DNA from: Acorus gramineus | Taxonomy: Eukaryota > Streptophyta > Magnoliopsida > Acorales > Acoraceae | Direction: 5' to 3' | DNA: 64,000 bases | NCBI GenBank assembly: GCA_030737835.1 | Contig: CM060850.1 | Location: 1,267,788-1,331,787, forward strand | Shown: piece after piece, positions 1,855-38,800 of the stretch | Numbering within the stretch: the stretch's first letter is position 1 | Layout of the letters: every line of letters begins with the position of its first letter | Position numbers and translations under genes: made by a program | The notes under the pieces: model-generated | What the model was told of the DNA's origin: nothing | What the model saw: the letters and a program-made list of their open reading frames with translations, nothing else | The model's database searches: none

Positions 1855-7894
<6,040 letters not shown>

Positions 7895-13120: not shown

Positions 13121-14122
13121 TCAACCGCTGACACTCTTCTCAGAGCAGACGTCCCCTGTTGCCCCCTCGTTGTCCGACTCCTCCTCCTCGACCAGGTGGT
13201 TGTCCTCAACGTTCTCTTCCCTCTCCGCCCCACCACGCCCGCTCTCCGTCTCCAGCGACTGCAGCCGCCTCCGCAGGTCCGCCATCTCCTGCTCCATCAA
13301 GAACAGCCTCTCCTTCAGCGTCAAATTCTCCTCCTCCAGCTGCGCGATGTGCGTGTCCTGATCATCAACACGGTTTTCAAGAAGGTAAGCGTGCTCATCG
13401 GCGAATCCGCCGCCGGGGTGGATCATCTCAAACCGGCTGAGGTCGTGATCAAGCCTCCTCTCCACCTCCACATGCTCCTCCACGTCGCTCTCGCTCGATC
13501 CGTCATCCTCCGCTTCGTCGTCCGCCCCAGCCCCCGCCTCGGGATTCGTGCGTAGGCGGATCAGGCCCTTCATCGAGCCGTAGCCGTCCACGCCCCACTC
13601 CTCCTTGGCCATGTCGCCGAGGACCTCCCGCGAGGGGGAGAAGGTCGGGGTCGGGAGGATCGCCGGGGTCACCGGGCAGGGAGAGACGAGCGACGCGATC
13701 CCGCCGGACTTCTTGGCGCGGATGATGAAGGAGGTCGTGTTTCTCGGCGCGAACGGCGCGAACCGGTTCTGGAACTTCTTCTTGGGGTAGAACCGGCGAG
13801 CCTTCACGCGGTTCTGGAACTGCAGATCCTGGAGCCTCGGCGGTTGGTACACCCCGCCGGAAACTCCACCACCGGTCGCAACGGCCGACGACAACGAGGG
13901 CTTCTTGCGCTTGTCGGCGAATTTCTTCCCCTTCCAAACGCCCCTCGCGGGCTTGCCGGAGGCGCCGGCACCGGGGACGAAACCCATCCGTTGAGGGTTC
14001 AGGAAATGGACGGGATCCTCCGCCGGCGCTTGTGGCAACAACGGCGGCTGCTGCGACTGCGGAGGCATCGGTTGCTGCCAGTGCGGGTAAGTCCGGTTCA
14101 TGATCTGAGATAGATCGTTCAT
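13121..14122 (-). CDS. Plant-specific basic/acidic coiled-coil protein, intronless (PRLI-interacting-factor-like)
   Basis: A single-exon reading frame of 333 codons. The frame is open upstream to 14134, but the codon there is TTG, so I take the ATG at 14122 (MNDLSQIMNRTYPHW). In order it has a Q/P-rich N terminus, a Lys/Arg-rich basic stretch (KGKKFADKRKK), and a block starting FIIRAKKSGGIASLVSPCP and ending MKGLIRLR at roughly residues 125-190. An acidic run (DDEAEDDGSSESD) follows, then a heptad-rich coiled coil (about residues 255-300, IAQLEEENLTLKERL) and an acidic tail. I recognise the RAKKSGG block as conserved in plant proteins often labelled PRLI-interacting factor. The molecular function is unknown to me; basic plus acidic regions suggest a nuclear protein, which is inference. 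GC content is far above the flanks. Confidence 0.8.
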   Translation of the reverse strand: MNDLSQIMNRTYPHWQQPMPPQSQQPPLLPQAPAEDPVHFLNPQRMGFVPGAGASGKPARGVWKGKKFADKRKKPSLSSAVATGGGVSGGVYQPPRLQDLQFQNRVKARRFYPKKKFQNRFAPFAPRNTTSFIIRAKKSGGIASLVSPCPVTPAILPTPTFSPSREVLGDMAKEEWGVDGYGSMKGLIRLRTNPEAGAGADDEAEDDGSSESDVEEHVEVERRLDHDLSRFEMIHPGGGFADEHAYLLENRVDDQDTHIAQLEEENLTLKERLFLMEQEMADLRRRLQSLETESGRGGAEREENVEDNHLVEEEESDNEGATGDVCSEKSVSG

Positions 14123-14141
14123 CGCGCGAAACAAAGCAAGA

Positions 14142-14185
14142 AAACCCTAATTTACTTTAGAAAACAAAACAGGGGGAAACCCTAA
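14142..14185 (-). promoter_or_regulatory. Two telo-box motifs just upstream of the coiled-coil gene
   Basis: AAACCCTAA occurs on the plus strand at 14142-14150 and again at 14177-14185, the second running on into CCTAG. Both lie 20-65 bp upstream of the ATG on the minus strand, so they are in the 5' leader or promoter. Telo-boxes are common in plant promoters of growth- and translation-related genes. The effect here is inferred. Confidence 0.5.
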
Positions 14186-27160: not shown

Positions 27161-27392
27161 TATTGTCGATGTTGTGGTGATTATGATGCGAGGTGAAATG
27201 CTGGCTGGTTTTCTTGGCTTTCAATTTTTTCCCCTTCTCTTCCATTCCATGTTTGTGTGGACAAAATGACCTTATTGGGGCAGAATTTCCTGCCTCTCCA
27301 TATTCCTAGCAGATTTTTTTATTGTTATTAGTGTGGTGAAATTTGAACTGTGAAATCCGGGGAAAAGCCTCTTTGGAGATCCACTGTTAGCT

Positions 27393-28995: not shown

Positions 28996-30199
28996 ATATG
29001 GGTCTTAATTTTATTTCAAAATTAAAACGAACGTATCAAAAAAAGGAAAAGATAAAGAAAAAGTCTATCTACAAGTTACAAGTAATATTTTTCTTTTCTT
29101 TTCGGTGAAAAAGAAATGCAGAAGATGGAGACAAATTTTGATGAGAGGATATCCAATGAAGAACTTTATAATGGAGGGTTAAAATATATTAAAAAAATTT
29201 AGAGTCTTATTATTTATATATCAACTCCAACTAAAATATTTATTTTCATCTTTATTCTATTTTTTTATATCTATTTTTTTAATAAGACTTCAATTTATAA
29301 TATCCTTTTTATTTTTTTGATGTAGTACACATAATTGAAAAATATTAAAAAATTTAAAATCGACAAAAGTTAATATTATTAGTTTCAGACCAAGTGACCA
29401 ATAAACTTATCAATTATTTCAAACTTATATCTGCATCCAAAAAACCTGTATTCATATCTGATTAAAATAATAACAAAATAATATTTATTATTAATAATAT
29501 ATTTATATTTATATTCCATACCACACTCACAGTGATTTCCGTACAAAGGAGGATTAGAAGATTACTAATGCAGCGGTTTATCTATTTCAAGATAGATTTA
29601 GATGCTGTTTATTATATGTTGTGTTTTATTTAATTTTTCATGTACTTTCTTTTGTTGTACTATCAGTTTTAATTATAATAAATGATATTTTAGTACATAA
29701 GTGTAAATGATAATTAATATAATATTAGTAAAAAAAATAAAAAATATATATGTTAAACATATTCAATATGAATCATATTGACGACATCTATCCAACTGTA
29801 CTAATTTTATAAAAATTGAAATTATATAATAGAAGTTATCAAACATTTTAAAATAACAACACCACCACCAAACCTCCATATTTGGAGGCTCACAATGAGC
29901 TTCCAAATATGGGGCCTCCATTTTTGAGGCCTTTCAGGCGAACGAATGGAGTCAATAAACCATCCAAACAAGCTCCATTTTGAGACATACATTCATCAAA
30001 TGAAATATATATTCGTTGAGCCGCAACAAAGGGATCTTCGCGGGGTAGAGATTTTACATGGAAAACGCTTGGGAAGACTCCCTGTTGTTCATCTCAACTT
30101 GGGGGTGCTCCCTGGTGGGCGCACGAGGAGTCCGGCTGGCAAAAACGTGCTACATATTAACCTCGACTAGTACTTTTTAAGTCTGCTGTGATCTTGTCT
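28996..30199. other. AT-rich intergenic stretch, no gene seen
   Basis: Very AT-rich, with stops in all frames. A small GC-richer island at 29865-30165 starts with a hairpin (cctccatatttggaggctca against tgagcttccaaatatgg, 29874-29914) and contains a 74-codon frame of no recognisable family. It is likely transposon debris. Confidence 0.4.
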
Positions 30200-30519
30200 G
30201 TGAAGAGTAAGTCTGTCAATTATCTAAAAAAATATCTGTATTAATCCGTATATGAAAATGTAAAAAATATCTGTATTCATATCCGAACTAAAATATCCTT
30301 ATCTAAAATTTTTTTAATCGAATATAAATTGTATCCGATGCAAATAATATTCAGTATTATTTTATTTATATATATTAGGATTAATTTCAAACCCTCGTAT
30401 CAAAATCTCACGTTCTAGAACAAAACACAGTAACATATGTTAGGGAAAGTTGGAAACCTCGTCGTGTTTCGTCTCTGGCAAAAACAGAGAAGAAAAAAAA
30501 CCCACAAAATCAACCCTAG

Positions 30520-31015
30520 AATCTGCTCGTCCAGTTCATCACCATCACCCTCATCATCATCATCTCCTCCACCCAATCCACTCTCATCCTCCCCCTCCAC
30601 CACTCCCTCTCCACCACCACCTCCACCACCCACCACCACCACCTCAAAACCACCTCCCATCGCCAACACATCCACCACAACCACCACGGCAGCGACTACA
30701 CCCTCTTCTTCTCCATCGGCCGCCGCCCCATCACCCTCTACATGGACACCGGCAGCGACCACGTCTGGTTCCCCTGTTCCCCTTTCGAATGCATCCTCTG
30801 CGACGACGTACAGACCCCAATCCCCCTCCCTCCCCCCATCTCCGCCACCTCCTCTGCCGTCTCCTGCGGCTCCCCACTCTGCTCCGCCGCCCACTCCGCC
30901 GCCGTCCCCTTCAGCTCCCCAATCTGCTCTGCCGCCCACTCCTCCCTCCCCTCCTTCGACGTCTGCATCGCCGCCTCCTGTCCCTTAGAGACCATCGAAA
31001 CCTCCATCTTCGTCT
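30520..31015 (+). pseudogene. Captured N-terminal fragment of a pepsin-like (A1) aspartyl protease
   Basis: An open frame without an ATG begins with a signal-peptide-like stretch (LLVQFITITLIIIISSTQS). It continues through SDYTLFFSIG and the active-site block MDTGSDHVWFPCSPFECILC. It then has Cys-rich sequence typical of plant nepenthesin-like proteases (VSCGSPLCSAAHS) and ends at CPLETIETS. A full enzyme would need about 300 more residues with the second catalytic DTG/DSG, so this is a fragment of about 165 codons. Two near-identical words (ccctagaatctgctcgtcc at about 30514 and 31061) bracket it. It lies entirely within the hAT-like element. Seen directly: frame and motifs. Inferred: capture. 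Confidence 0.75.
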
Positions 31016-31894
31016 CTTATCCAACCAAAAACAAAAAAATAAAAAATCACAAATCAGCCCTAGAATCTGCTCGTCCCGGTCTCTCTTCTTCTTTCTTCTA
31101 ACTGCTTCGGATATTTCGGATAATTATTCGAATATGTATTCAAATGTTTGGATATGGTACGATACATGTTTATGAATATCCGTCAGATATCGGATATGGA
31201 TAATATTTTGGGTGATTTTACTTGAGCCCCTTAGAATGGTAAATAAACCCCTTTTATTAATAAGTCCCTTACATTTTCATAATTTAATTTAAAAGCCCCT
31301 CATATATTAACTTCATATTTAAACAATAACTAAGCCTCTTTTATATCAAAGCATATCTCTTACCCTTCCATGACTCTCCCAAAAACTCGATCTCTCTTAC
31401 CAATTCGACTTCTCCACATATAAAAATAGATTTTTTTATTAATATTCAGCCAATCAAACACATATATATATATATTTTTAATTTTTTGGTGAAAATTAAA
31501 ATCCATATTTATATATATCTATTCAATTTCAATTGGAGCATACATTAATGCCCAGAATTCAGGCCATATTGATGTCCAAGTATAAACCTCTTTTATAAAT
31601 AAATATATAAATAAATAAATTTAAATGAGATTGGGGTTATGCTTATTAAAAAAATCTTAACTAAAACAATAATGATTCCTAGGCCCCAACTTCACAGGCC
31701 TCAAACCAGGCCCCATGATGTGGCAAGTATATATTGTCTATTATATCCTAATGTTTATCTCATTCTCTCCCAATAATTGTTAAAACCCTTCAAAAATAAA
31801 AATATAAAAAAAACAATCAACGACCCAAATTAAAAGCCCATCTCTCTCTTATCTCTTCAAAACCTTCCAAATAAAATCAAAACTCTCTCTCTCA

Positions 31895-32182
31895 ATGGGT
31901 TCCATCGTCGCCAACGAAGAAAAATCCGATGCCGACGGCAAACCTCCACTCTCCGCCGCCGCAACACCCTCCCGTCCCATCTGGAGCTCCAGCTCCCGCA
32001 ACCGTCGACGGCGATGGCGGCAGAGGATTTTGAGATGGTCTCCTGGAAGCCGTCGGCGTGCACGAGCCTTTGTCGCAGATCGACGCTGCCTCTCCCACCG
32101 CCTCCGCCGCGGGTCGACGCTCAGAACAACCCCTTTTTTTTCAATTTGGATGTTACCTCAATGTCTCTCGAATCAGGTTTGA
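31895..32182 (+). CDS. Small GC-rich ORF (95 aa) inside the MULE-like element, origin unknown
   Basis: ATG at 31895 follows a CT-rich leader (cactctctctctctcaATG) and opens a frame beginning MGSIVANEEKSDADGKPPLS, then Arg-rich. The DNA is much more GC-rich than the surrounding element, and a donor-like caggtttg follows at about 32174. This fits a captured first exon of a plant gene. I cannot name the parent. Whether it is transcribed or translated is unknown. The overlapping frames on both strands seem to be a by-product of high GC. Confidence 0.3.
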   Translation: MGSIVANEEKSDADGKPPLSAAATPSRPIWSSSSRNRRRRWRQRILRWSPGSRRRARAFVADRRCLSHRLRRGSTLRTTPFFSIWMLPQCLSNQV

Positions 32183-32490
32183 CATTATTATATTTGTAAT
32201 CGAGTTGTGTTTTACTTATTGTTTTAAATTTAAACACGATTTTTTTATGTAATGAATGTCATTTTTCACAGTTTGATTTGTTTTTGTCTCAATATCTAAA
32301 TATAGCAATCGATACTGTTACATTTTATATGGGGGTAGTTTGTTTAATGCTACTGCTACATTATTGACAATGTAAATAGACATTTTTAAAATCTGTGTTG
32401 TTTTTGTTACATTTGTAAATGTAACAGTCAACCGCATGCATGTATTAATTTATATTTGTTACATTCATAAATGTGTCAACTACATGTATA

Positions 32491-32960
32491 TTGCATAGAA
32501 TGTAAAACATTTGGTAAATGTAACCGTTATGTCACATTTATGTAAATGTAACAGTTTTCATCAAAATGAATCAAATGGTTCATGTAATATTTGTTAAATG
32601 TAACTTATAACAAAAAATGTGTTTGACATTTTTTATAAAATGTAACTGACTATTGAATAGAGGATCGGTTTAAAATTGTTTAAACATTGCATGGAATGTA
32701 AAACATTTAGGTAAATGTAACTATTATGTTACATTTATGTAAATGTAACAGTTTTTATGAAAATGAATCAAATAATTCATGTAATATTTGTTAAATGTAA
32801 CTCATAAAAAAAAAGGTGTTTGATATTTTTCATAAAATGTAACTGACTATTGAAGAAAGAATCTGTTTAAAATTGTTTAAACATTGCATGGAATGTAAAA
32901 CAATTATGTAAATGTAACAATGTTTATGTAAATACAACAAATAATTGTAAAGGATGTAAA
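32491..32960. repeat. About 200-bp tandem repeat, 2.3 copies, rich in the word gtaaatgtaac
   Basis: Copies start at ttgcatagaatgtaaaac (32491), ttgcatggaatgtaaaac (32697) and, partial, at 32884. Within each unit the words ATGTAAC and TTTATGTAAATGTAACA recur. Units one and two match through ctgactattgaa and taaaattgtttaaac. Located inside the MULE-like element. Confidence 0.7.
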
Positions 32961-33639
32961 TATTTAGGAAATGTATTTGTATTTTCAGAGATGATCTTAT
33001 TTATGTAAATTGAAAAGATGTTTGTCAAATGCTATAATGTTTAGTTAATAACATTCTTAAAAAAATATATACAGTACGAATGTAATTTGAAAGAAAAAGA
33101 GTAGCCGTTTGGATTTTGACAAAAAAAAAATAATTTAGGTAAGTTTTTGTGTAATTTAGGTTAATTTTGGGAAAGGATTTCAAAATTCAATTACCAAGTA
33201 AGGATTTCAAAATTCAAATTGTGAAATACATAACATTAGTAACTGATTTGAGAAAAAAAGGGATTTGGATTAATGGAAAAGATTTTTAATAAAGGGCAGA
33301 TTTATATTTTAACATTTAACTCTTTTTGAAAAATTAACAAGCCAACCAATGAGATGATGACACCTCATGGGGCTTGTGAGTGGGGCCTGTATTTTGAGGC
33401 CTGGGTATCATGACTCTAACTAAAGATTTTATTAAAAAATTAGGTGGGCTTACTTATTGGGGGGTGTAGTTATTAGAAAAATCTAAATGGATCTTTGACA
33501 GCAAAATTCATTTAAGAGGGATTTATTTACAATTTTGAGGGGCTCAAGTAGAGCCACCCTAATATTTCACATATTTAGTTTGGATACGGATACGAATATG
33601 GGCAGATCCGCTTCATATCCGTCTAATTGACAAGCTCAG

Positions 33640-34295
33640 TGAAGAGGATGTATTATGTTTTGTTTTGGTGTGATGCTCCGTCTACCTTTTATTCTCTTGT
33701 TTTAGGGGGATTGATTGCTCTACACTACTTGTGTGTGTAACCATCTCGCAACCTCATCTCTCTCCCCCTCGCTTTGAGGAAAGATTCGGACCAGTGTAAC
33801 ATCTTATATAAAGTTATATAGTCTACCATTTCCTAAAAAAAAAATTTAGATGAATTGAATGAATGATTTTTTTGGTAGTGGGATTGCAAAACTGATTTGT
33901 TGCAAACGTTGGGTTTAAAATTAATTCGGTAGGAAGCTTCCCCTCCCTCAACTTTTGAAAAACGCAGCTTTTAGACACTATTTACTTCAAATATATCTGC
34001 ATGAAGTTGTCTTAGTTTTTCTGTTTGGTTGCACGATTACAGAAATATCTTCCTTCAAATGCAAAAATTGTTTCATCGTGCAACTAAACTCTACCTAAGT
34101 ATATACTTAAGTAAACAAAATATATAAAACAATTTTTGTAACCCATCCCGTTTTTTTCTTTAAAAAGTCTTTTGTTTTTTCTTTTAAAATAAAACTTTGG
34201 TTTTCCACCTTTCGAATGTTTGTGTCAAGTTCTTCAAAAATGGGTTTTAAAAAAAGATCGTTTTTGAGGGGGACCAAAAGGGAGTTTCACTTCCA
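33640..34295. mobile_element. Intergenic with a copy of the 18859 MITE family at about 33868-34098
   Basis: Between 33868 and 34098 the motif order of the 18.9-kb MITE returns: gggattgcaaaactgatt, cgcagcttttagacactattt, tctgtttggttgcacgatta, then tcgtgcaactaaactc. The remaining sequence is AT-rich without a gene. Confidence 0.6.
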
Positions 34296-34769: not shown

Positions 34770-35839
34770 TATTAAAAAACAAAAATAGTCATTTTTTCTT
34801 TTTTTTCTCTTTCATTAGATCTCCAATAGAGGGTGTTGACTTAGGTACCAAAATCAAGTAATCAAGTAATATAATAAAATCGACACAATTGTACTGAGAA
34901 TACCAAAACCAGGTGTATACTCAGGGAAAGAATTGGCGTTTTTCTTCAATGTCGATTATACTCGTTTTTCTTCAATGTCGATTATACTCGTTTAAGCTCA
35001 TGAATTTCACTCATTTATACTAAAATTTTATTTTCAACCCCTAAAAACCCTAAAATGAAGAAGAATGTCAAACTCGTTGAGGCTCGTAAACTCGACTCAT
35101 TTATAAACGAGTCAAACTTGAACATGTTAAAGCTCAACTCGTTTACCCTTCCTCAACATAGGGGATCAATAGCATATAAAGTTTCAAACTGGTAGGGGCA
35201 TGTGGATTTTCATCTTGTTTGCAAGGTGTTACATGGATTTTCTCAGAAATCAATGGGTTATATGGATGTAGGACAGATTTCAAGGAGTTACATAGATTGA
35301 AACTACATGGTTAACCATGATTGAAAATATAATATACTAAAAATCTTATATAATTTGTTAAAAATATAAAAACTCTTTCATATATATACTTTGTTAATAT
35401 GAGTATATGCCACAATGATTATCTATCACCGTATATAGATTTGGAATTGGAGTTGAAAAAAAAATTATGCAACAGCATGATAAATAAAAATCCAAAATCA
35501 ATATCATTCTACATCGCCTTTCTAATAATGTAAATTCACCATTCAATGGGACTGTAGACTCAAGAATTAGAGTGAAAACACTACCAACTCTCCTGACTGG
35601 GGCCAATGTAAATACAAAACCAACTACTCTACAAAAATATCCAAAACCAGTAACCCTTACATCTGTTGTTTATACACAGCAATTAGAGCAACTTAAAACC
35701 TCAACACTTTCCTATTCAGATTCATCAGTGGACTGTTATCTAGAAAGTATCTGTTAACTCGCTATCACACAACCAACTCCACAAAAAAAAAAAAAAAAAA
35801 TCAAATATAACATAAACTGATATAAAGGGGGGAATTCCG
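34770..35839. other. Intergenic, callose synthase 3' flank, with a foldback relic near 35155-35300
   Basis: Words like ggggcatgtggattttcat, gttacatggattttct and gggttatatggatgta at 35200-35270 resemble one arm of the 9067-9893 foldback family. A small direct duplication (tttttcttcaatgtcgatta) occurs at about 34942 and 34968. The rest is AT-rich and includes the likely 3' UTR of the callose synthase gene. No further gene seen. Confidence 0.45.
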
Positions 35840-38800
35840 TTACAGGTTGGTGTTGGGATTGTTTCCTGCGAGGATAAGGGAGATCTCCAGCCCCCTGCTG
35901 AACGCCTGGTTGAAAAGCAAACGCGTCTGGAACGTGGATACGAATGGGAACCATGAGAAGATGGCAACTGGAATGAATATGAGCATTCCCATCCCAGCAT
36001 CGTATAGACGGGCAACTGAACGCACGGACTTCCATGCCCCACATTTCTTTATCAGAGGCTTCCACGCAACCGCAATCTGATGAAAACGATGAAGCATGTG
36101 AAGTTTTAGTTATGTTTGCTTTAAAGAAATTGAGTTCGCATGCAAGCAGATGGCGAGGTTGAATTTTAAAACATTTTCAGAAAGCAAGATGGTTCATTTA
36201 CACAGTATCTAAAACCATTAGTGCAATTTTTATTTTTTTATCATTAATCATTGAGTCGCATGGATGAATGGTTATATTCTTTATTATTGCAGGAAAACCT
36301 TCAGATTCAAACCAATTTTTAAATGATGAGACATACAATATGTAATCCGATTATCAGTAATATTATCGTTCCTGAGACACATGGCTTGTTTTCTGTGTTG
36401 TCTGTCCTACCATGCGAAACAATAGAAAGAGAAACTAGACAAAAGGCTGAAGCTACTCACGGAAAGAATTCCCCAGCCTGTTGGGAGAAATGCTAATATG
36501 CAAGCAAAGATGTCTGGGAAAGAGAGTTTTGTTGTCGCAATTGCAACGATTAAACCAGCGATTACAAGCATGAAGGATACACCTTGGATGAAGCGCAGCA
36601 ATAGTTGAAAATTTACGGACGCCTTTTCGCTGAAGGTGAATAACTAGAAAAAAAATACAAAACAAAACCTCACGTAAATTTACACAAGTGATACGAGAAC
36701 TACAACTTAAGATTTTTTTTACGGCATTCACAAATGCTTCCACATACCTTGAAAAGAATCAGCAGAACTATGAAGACAATCCATGAAAATCCATATGCCT
36801 GCAGCAAATGGAAATGTGAGGTAATTTTGAGGAAATTACATTTTGAATGTTAAGAATAAATTAACAAATCCTGACCAAATATTTTAAGTGTTACTGCTAA
36901 CAAAAAAACAAATCCCAACAAAATAGGCAAGGGTCACTAAGTGAGAACCACAATTCAAGCGGTTCCAACAAACCCTAACCATCTTCTTTTAGGGGATCCT
37001 TTCGTGGATCTCAAAGCAAACTGATTCCGAGCTAGGAATCCATGTGGAAGGAATCCATTCATACAGAAGTTCCTGCAACTTTTACTCCCACAATAGAAAC
37101 TAGATGGTAGGTACACATTTTGAAATACAACTACTGTAAGGGTCACGAAAATTGTTGACTCCAGATGTACATCCAAGTCTTGTAATTTTCCCTAAGTAGA
37201 TATGTAAAAACCTATCATGCTGTTTATACGAAGTTTATAGAATAATAGTCAAGCCTGAGGAAAAAGTTATCAATTAGTTTATCCACTAACCTGTAGCATC
37301 AAAGTTGACCAGAAGCCTCAGGCAATTGCTTCAAACAATCGCCAACAAGTCACTGACAAGAAAATTCTAAAAGCATGCAGATCCCTTTCAACCCACAGAG
37401 GGAATTATTGTAGGCTGACATTTGTGACTAAATGTAATTTATAAAGCCAAAGCAAACCCACGGAAAAACACAAGCTATTTCAATGTAGATGTAGAATTCC
37501 AGTTGAAAGATATATGTTCGATTGTAACTTTCAACAAGCAGAAAAATTGGATGAACATGCAGTCTTGTGCATTTCTAGTTCTTATGCTAGCAATTGCCAA
37601 AACGTCATAAAAAGATAACTGGTTTATTATATAGATGAATAGCTATAAAAACCAACACTGAATGGTGCGTATTTACATAATAATATGAGACCCATAGCGG
37701 CAAAATCATGATATCAACCTTTAAGTGAAAAAGGTCAACGGGCACAAACAACACGTATAGTAAGCATAAAAATAAAATCACCCCAGCTTGGACCATCAAA
37801 TGTGAGCTTTGTACTTTGGTCTTCAGGACATGGGATTTGGGAAGTCATATGCAAAGCACACGGAATAACTAAATAGGAAGTTTTTATACCGTCAGTGATG
37901 TGCTTGATCCAGTCGCATGCAGTTTGTATACAATGCCATATTGGAAAATGAAAAACCGTAGACTCAAGATGGTCTCAAATATCCTTCCGCTTAGGGTACG
38001 TATATGGGCCTGTACAAAACAATTTTCTGATGTCAAGTAAAACCCATTAATTAACAAATCAGGAGATCAGACTCAAGCTATGTATTCATTAAATTTCAGT
38101 GATTGAATGATACAAGGGTTTTAATCCACAGTGTCATAAATTACTATAGGTAGAAGTAGCTTAAGCTTCCAGAAGCTTTCCCAACAAATCAGCTGATATA
38201 TAAAAGATCTCTTTACCTGGGGTTCAACTGCTAAATTATATGCACAATGTAAAATGTAGATTAAGATGCTACTGTAACACAAACAAAAGAAAATTCCAGT
38301 ACCAGGGGACAAACATAAACTGATGAACACTTATACCTAATAGGGCGCTGCAACTTGCAAGTGTGATGCACATCATTTTGTGGGGACCATTTTTGACAAT
38401 TGTATTTGCATCATGAGGGGAAGGGATTTTATTGACATCATTTTGGAGTCACAGTTGTAGTAGACATTTCAATAAGGATATTTTGAAAAACTTACAAGAT
38501 TTCAGTTGCTGGTTTTATAATGTAAAAATGCTTCTTTAGTTAAACAAAATTACTTTGGGCTTATTAAATGGAAAAAAAAGCAGCAATCACTTGACAATAT
38601 CCAAAATAATATAGAACATATTAAGAGCATTTTGTAATAAGAATGCTGTGGAAATACCAGCTCCTCATCCCACCAAGCTTCCCAGCTCTCTTCTCCCTTA
38701 ACTCCGATTCCACCTCGATAAAGAAGCCAGTTTGTCCAGTCACTGAAGTCCTCCACTGTCCTGAATGAAAAAAAAAAATTCAACATATCTTAGTCCAGCC

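Follow-up and report, generated by a model that had tools for sequence, protein, structure and literature searches.

Introduction

Pack-hAT elements, surveyed in maize and rice, have been reported with 8-nt duplications, same-orientation local insertions and examples of fusion (PMC8903248; here and below, published work is cited for the available part of each source). For the Ds elements of maize, gene fragments have been called rare and repair errors have been suggested as their cause, and in the available part of the same source the way in which DNA transposons take up genes is described as not known (PMC3260210). Mutator-like elements (MULEs) with extra inverted repeats have also been described (PMC3310237), as have duplications of 8 and 9 bp for grapevine hAT elements and MULEs, respectively (PMC2528002); a 2026 review was consulted in addition (PMC13317346, in part). 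Here we analyse a 64,000-nt stretch of DNA from Acorus gramineus (C4:1267788-1331787; henceforth the window), in which a non-autonomous hAT-type element carrying a fragment of a host aspartyl-protease gene is interrupted by two MULE-type elements, which we call MULE-A and MULE-B. Copies were searched for in the window's own assembly (398.6 Mb).

The locus adds a well-resolved case to known kinds of transposon (Pack-hAT, nested transposons) and does not represent a new kind. With Pack-hAT and Pack-TYPE elements it shares non-autonomous hAT ends, an 8-bp duplication, captured coding DNA, several capture-carrying copies and a related same-orientation end nearby (PMC8903248); like a Pack-TYPE element, it encloses a copied piece of a host gene that can be identified, and it moved after the capture. 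What sets it apart from the Pack-hAT elements in the available part of that source is the diverged direct repeat on either side of the captured DNA and the subsequent splitting of this copy by two MULE-type elements. It further resembles maize Ds2 and Ds-l4, in which hAT ends with an 8-bp duplication surround filler DNA that may be a piece of a gene, both in this arrangement and in its length of about 1 kb, whereas the Ac/Ds ends are C/TAGGGATGAAA and those found here are TAAGNCTGTCAATTA-like and accompanied by TATCCG-type subterminal motifs (PMC3260210). As in short non-autonomous MULEs and Pack-MULEs (PMC3310237, PMC2528002), the inner elements have 9-bp duplications and inverted ends, MULE-A occurring in many short copies and MULE-B carrying a GC-rich block. 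Compared with MULEs that have long terminal inverted repeats (TIRs), the inverted ends here are shorter (about 50-60 bp), and no gene source was found for the GC-rich block.

Structure of the nest and order of insertions

The locus is very probably a stepwise nest of cut-and-paste elements, formed by a capture, the insertion of the hAT-type element into an older repeat, and the insertions of MULE-A and then MULE-B. In this reconstruction, the history would begin with a non-autonomous hAT-type element acquiring roughly codons 16-166 from an aspartyl-protease gene of the host and transposing afterwards; one capture-bearing copy would have inserted at 30208-33638 in the older repeat, producing an 8-bp duplication; MULE-A would have entered the TATCCG-rich 3′ subterminal region of this copy with a 9-bp duplication; and MULE-B would have entered MULE-A with a second 9-bp duplication. 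The genome holds the source gene, other copies that share the capture, and an empty or uninterrupted site for each of the three insertions, and the insertion order is shown as well. For each step of the nest there is a copy without the later step, a completeness that is rare. No transposase was seen in any of the three elements, so they were presumably all moved by enzymes from elsewhere; here, as for the time scale and the mechanism of capture, we infer.

The outer element, its duplication and the repeat that received it are as follows:
30200..30207, no strand: left 8-bp target-site duplication of the hAT-type element (GTGAAGAG), directly outside 30208
30208..33638, plus strand: non-autonomous hAT-type element with captured gene fragment, delimited by genome copies sharing both ends
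33639..33646, no strand: right 8-bp target-site duplication of the hAT-type element (GTGAAGAG), directly outside 33638
30055..33850, plus strand: older recipient repeat, with flanks at about 30055-30207 and 33647-33844 and an A-rich end near 33835-33844

The perfect 8-bp duplication named in a preliminary description of this DNA is therefore in place, and it encloses an element whose own length is 1,072 bp, not counting the later insertions and one copy of the duplication. Its inverted ends match at 12 of 15 bases, and when the right end was fixed to 33600-33660 a partner was found in 0 of 3000 shuffled left flanks. Local alignment of the outer ends gave modest figures, the score being reached by 1 of 500 shuffles for the first 40 bases and by 8 of 500 for longer subterminal stretches. 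The inverted ends of hAT elements have a conserved A at position 2 and G at position 5; the first bases are TAAGT and TGAGC in the window, and TAAGG and TAAGC in a copy at another locus (L003, see below). A genome search with 30150-30700 returned 51 matches among the best 40 of 342 candidates, and among the 50 non-self ones, 35 begin within query positions 51-72 (the element itself begins at base 59). An 8-bp duplication (at most one mismatch) was found in 10 of the 26 family loci scanned, including 6 of the 20 outside the set used to define the ends, and no end pair with a duplication was found in 16 of the 26. A Pfam search of the ORFs (open reading frames) of the outer element found no hAT transposase. 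Nor was an autonomous partner of the family found among the 150 places listed, out of 554 candidates, for PF05699, none of which lies within 10 kb of a family place (by eye).

Two loci, L002 (contig C57) and L003 (C52), hold full-length matches to the outer element that include the protease fragment and both of the leader sequences bracketing it (leaders A and B), without the inner insertion. The window and L003 align with 862 identities and 135 mismatches (213 gap positions include unrelated flanks), and the duplication at L003 reads ATTCCCAT/ATGCCCAT. A third locus, L006 (C32), has the 5′ end together with leader B and the 3′ portion of the fragment; no complete end pair was found there. The window's capture is shared by L002 and L003 and, in part, by L006, and at each of them the flanks differ from those of the window. 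As uninterrupted copies carry the same capture, the element moved after the capture took place. L002 and L003 thereby bear out the proposal that a protease fragment lies in a hAT-type element later split by a MULE-type element, together with the proposed order of capture, outer insertion and inner insertion, and they supply the uninterrupted copies with the same ends by which it was to be checked.

An empty insertion site had likewise been called for, and is provided by a paralogue, L063 (C5), which is collinear with the recipient repeat from 30055 across the hAT insertion point to the A-rich end and lacks the element (261 identities, 75 mismatches and 44 gaps; 109 identities and 30 mismatches for the left flank alone). 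The left flank also matches L055 (C9) at 78%, and this match continues more weakly past the insertion point, again without the element (score reached by 15 of 1000 shuffles). A search with 33639-33850 returned 39 non-self matches, mostly to its last 80 bp or so. This repeated, A-tailed 3′ end suggests that the recipient repeat is a retroposon.

The insertion within the 3′ subterminal region of the hAT copy begins and ends with MULE-A:
31201..31209, no strand: left 9-bp duplication of MULE-A (TAATATTTT), directly outside 31210
31210..33559, plus strand: MULE-A, a short MULE-type element in the hAT 3′ subterminal region, 591 bp without MULE-B
33560..33568, no strand: right 9-bp duplication of MULE-A (TAATATTTC, 8 of 9 bases), directly outside 33559

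The inner 9-bp duplication with a single mismatch was thus correctly described. The same holds for the statement that removing the inner insertion rejoins motif-rich subterminal sequence of the outer element: the two 150-bp bins flanking the insertion are the window's densest in TATCCG-type motifs (9 and 5, against a mean of 0.32). The inverted ends of MULE-A are 82% identical over about 50 nt, and the score of the inner inverted arms was reached by 0 of 500 shuffles. At L003 the corresponding hAT site is present without MULE-A. A genome search with 31210-31657 gave 46 matches. All 19 of the non-self copies fetched (584-721 bp in length) cross the MULE-B site with at most one extra base, and 11 of them have a 9-bp duplication (at most one mismatch) exactly at their ends, which is perfect in 7; among the remaining 8, two have a pair with 2 mismatches and six lack a convincing pair (one of these being an uncounted run of A). 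Two further candidates in the left arm of MULE-A were rejected: a tandem TIR or extra TIR copy, whose score was reached by 12 of 500 shuffles, and a small element within 31255-31660, the best candidate for which was reached by 4 of 60 random placements, the inverted block there being the end of MULE-B.

Within MULE-A lies the second element, which, like its 9-bp duplication, was absent from the preliminary description:
31658..31666, no strand: left 9-bp duplication of MULE-B (TAACTAAAA)
31667..33416, plus strand: MULE-B, a 1,750-bp MULE-type element within MULE-A, delimited by end alignment with the L009 copy
31895..32140, plus strand: GC-rich coding-like block of MULE-B (GC 0.626), with no Pfam family above cut-off
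33417..33425, no strand: right 9-bp duplication of MULE-B (TAACTAAAG, 8 of 9 bases)

MULE-B also stands on its own at L009, the surroundings of L003, where 1,607 bp lie between two copies of TAGCGAGAA, a perfect 9-bp duplication, 75 bp past the hAT copy. The ends of the L009 copy match window positions 31667 and 33416 base for base, and the copy lacks the sequence corresponding to 31750-32133. A search with 31740-32200 gave 46 matches among the best 40 of 514 candidates, of which 19 non-self ones are near full length at 71-89% identity; we infer that these 19 are copies of MULE-B. The inner GC-rich DNA, which recurs at at least 19 other near-full-length places, is thus not a private, recent capture. 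Pfam searches of the MULE-B frames gave matches below the cut-off only, and no transposase family was found among the 14 ORFs of at least 70 amino acids listed for 29800-34100; the genome was not searched for MULE transposases.

These copies decide between two inner elements and the three-layer nest proposed earlier, in which 31210-33559 would be occupied by a single inner MULE-type element whose inverted repeats are long and partly decayed and which carries a GC-rich capture. The outermost ends do form a good inverted pair with a 9-bp duplication, and the blocks at 31643-31725 and 33358-33438 (0 of 500 shuffles) at first resembled the inner part of the same inverted repeat. However, all 19 fetched MULE-A copies are continuous across 31657/33426, the second inverted block is the end of MULE-B, and MULE-B stands alone in L009 with a perfect duplication, which leaves the single-element alternative exceedingly improbable, barring a precise loss of one identical stretch from every MULE-A copy. 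The nesting of an inner insertion in an outer element stands, while the count of three layers does not: the inner part consists of MULE-B in MULE-A, and the outer element itself lies within an older repeat. In annotation, masking should treat the inner insertion as a pair of elements.

The surroundings and interior of MULE-B offer some additional observations. In L009 (about 4300-7090) and the corresponding part of L010, a MULE-B copy neighbours a hAT copy that has the same protease capture. This stretch is duplicated at 97% on two contigs, and the sequence that separates the two elements and follows them resembles retrotransposon integrase (by eye). Within the window copy of MULE-B, a 197-bp tandem repeat is present in 2.2 copies at 32490-32918, and TGTAAC/GTTACA motifs are dense in 32180-33060, which holds 14 of the window's 58.

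The captured protease fragment and its source gene

The captured coding sequence comprises the following features:
30536..31009, plus strand: captured host aspartyl-protease fragment, about codons 16-166 of 473, with the first catalytic motif (DTGSD) included
30842..30942, plus strand: 45-bp in-frame tandem duplication, private to the window copy and absent from L002, L003, L006 and the source gene (alignment)

The source gene, L004, lies on the same contig (C4:27213900), about 25.9 Mb from the window, and is intact as a single open frame of 473 amino acids, of which the captured part makes up roughly the first third. Fragment and source share 90.2% of nucleotides over 389 bases and 88.6% over 79 bases. 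In a protein comparison, L004 came first with 87% amino-acid identity, followed by score or identity by the element copies on C57 and C52, other genes reaching at most 41%. The fragment belongs to TAXi_N in Pfam (E 1e-9, profile positions 1-62 of 176), and a PDB sequence search with it gave nothing related (best E 0.083). L004 contains DTGSD and DSGTT motifs, and the gene is presumably similar to Arabidopsis At4g16563. Both inner and outer elements had been said to carry foreign GC-rich, coding-like DNA. The GC-richness is real (0.643 in the protease capture, and as given above in MULE-B), whereas a foreign origin is ruled out by the source gene on the same contig, and a host-like ORF in the window (13121-14146) has a GC of 0.635 and a GC at third codon positions (GC3) of 0.819.

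The codons of the captured frame were compared with the source. The window copy differs by 4 synonymous and 17 non-synonymous changes in 140 comparable codons (8 gapped codons omitted), with no stop and a ratio of non-synonymous to synonymous proportions (pN/pS) of 1.45, and thus gives no sign of purifying selection; L006 differs by 10 synonymous and 19 non-synonymous changes in 57 codons (pN/pS 0.69), again with no stop. The captured frame is most likely non-functional. The contrary view would make these 193 open codons (30520-31101) a functioning new gene or a regulatory source, and could appeal to the frame having stayed open despite the 45-bp duplication and deletions. We consider it very unlikely, however, given that the frame has only the first catalytic motif, that its translation shows no in-frame start ahead of this motif, that its pN/pS exceeds one, and that two of the three other capture-bearing copies compared contain stops. 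The 193-codon open frame should accordingly not be annotated as a gene.

Several observations weigh against the stepwise reconstruction and its reading of the captured frame. L002 and L003 represent one insertion and not two, being 97% alike over 8,045 bp of a duplicated region, and were counted as such. Their fragments differ from the source by 15 synonymous and 27 non-synonymous changes at L003 (pN/pS 0.63; 2 stops) and by 14 and 22 at L002 (pN/pS 0.55; 1 stop). The window duplications of MULE-A and MULE-B each contain one mismatch. An unrestricted scan of the window for exact 8-bp duplications with at least 12 of 15 matching bases in the inverted ends found 2 real pairs against 0.42 expected (60 shuffles); given this chance rate, ends and duplication alone are weak ground for the outer boundary. 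The L063 site is diverged (78% identity), and its 8 bases are not GTGAAGAG. At L062 (C32), only the right flank is found, with similarity that starts at 33643, inside the duplication, and no left flank; this start probably reflects 5′ truncation. Finally, the empty sites known are paralogous and come from one assembly, with no orthologous site among them.

Direct repeat around the fragment and mode of capture

The fragment is bracketed by two copies of a leader sequence:
30453..30537, plus strand: leader copy A, the upstream arm of the direct repeat, defined by alignment to 30997-31081
30997..31081, plus strand: leader copy B, the downstream arm, overlapping at its start with the end of the captured coding sequence (GAAACCTC; GAGACCTC in the source gene)

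The two leaders align with 67 identities, 14 mismatches and 8 gaps, a score reached by 0 of 500 shuffles. The leader does not adjoin the gene in L004, and a genome search for it gave five matches, in capture-bearing copies only. Such an arrangement points to a template switch in the course of repair, or else to two neighbouring elements having fused.

In the case of template switching, a repair strand set off by excision or breakage would have copied the protease gene, returned to the element at a short patch of similarity and recopied the leader, leaving the order leader, gene, leader. We regard this as a serious contender, if somewhat short of probable. It would account for the direct repeat itself and for the absence of the leader from the source gene, and at the return junction GAGACCTC of the gene matches GAAACCTC of leader A at 7 of 8 bases (by eye); errors of repair have also been proposed for Ds elements (PMC3260210). 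Nevertheless, 16 of 97 aligned columns distinguish leader A from leader B in the window and in L003 alike (some of these columns precede the junction), so that the differences predate the parting of these copies and exceed what a simple recopying predicts, and a progenitor with a single leader was not found among the five leader matches.

Those same differences, and the direct orientation of the repeat, are accounted for by fusion, in which two leader-bearing relatives in the same orientation would have inserted on either side of the gene segment; once their inner ends were gone, the outer ends would have mobilised the whole. Both the model and examples for hAT elements have been published (PMC8903248). 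In addition, another, older 5′ end (TAAACTTATCAATTATTTC...) that belongs to this hAT family lies in the same orientation at 29402-29500, 806 bp upstream. The score of its similarity was equalled in 10 of 500 shuffles, and neither a matching 3′ end nor a duplication was found for it. Fusion would, however, require two insertions into the coding part of a gene that is still intact, it reduces the similarity patch at the return junction to coincidence, and no leader-bearing element without the capture appeared in the genome search. We rate it a little below template switching, and likewise short of probable.

More tentatively still, and in our estimate rather unlikely, the leader-fragment-leader structure may be a preserved record of gene uptake by a hAT-type element, through repair copying, a switch back at a short similarity and subsequent transposition. 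Should a single-leader progenitor come to light, the locus would fix the direction of a capture mechanism that is called unknown in the available part of PMC3260210. The direct repeat offers a concrete junction at which two current capture models predict different progenitors: template switching predicts one leader running directly into TCTCTTCTTC and the 3′ subterminal region, and fusion predicts two partial elements, to which leader A and leader B would match separately.

Neighbouring sequence

Scans against Rfam and for tRNAs gave no match, and neither did plasmid records. An actin gene lies upstream of the nest (Pfam Actin, 2.5e-50 and 2.6e-71), with the end of its last exon near 27162. 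The GC-rich ORF at 13121-14146 is a single minus-strand frame of 341 amino acids with a sub-threshold Pfam match only. Short minus-strand ORFs at 35843-36643 are presumably similar to the C-terminal part of callose synthase, a likeness that neither Pfam nor PDB (first ORF only) confirmed. At 35017-35341, a further 8-bp repeat (ATACTAAA) encloses AT-rich sequence with inverted ends matching at 13 of 15 bases, at about chance level. A short hairpin-like repeat (CCATATTTGGAGGCTC...GAGCTTCCAAATATGG) at 29869-29923 has dozens of matches in the genome, on both strands.

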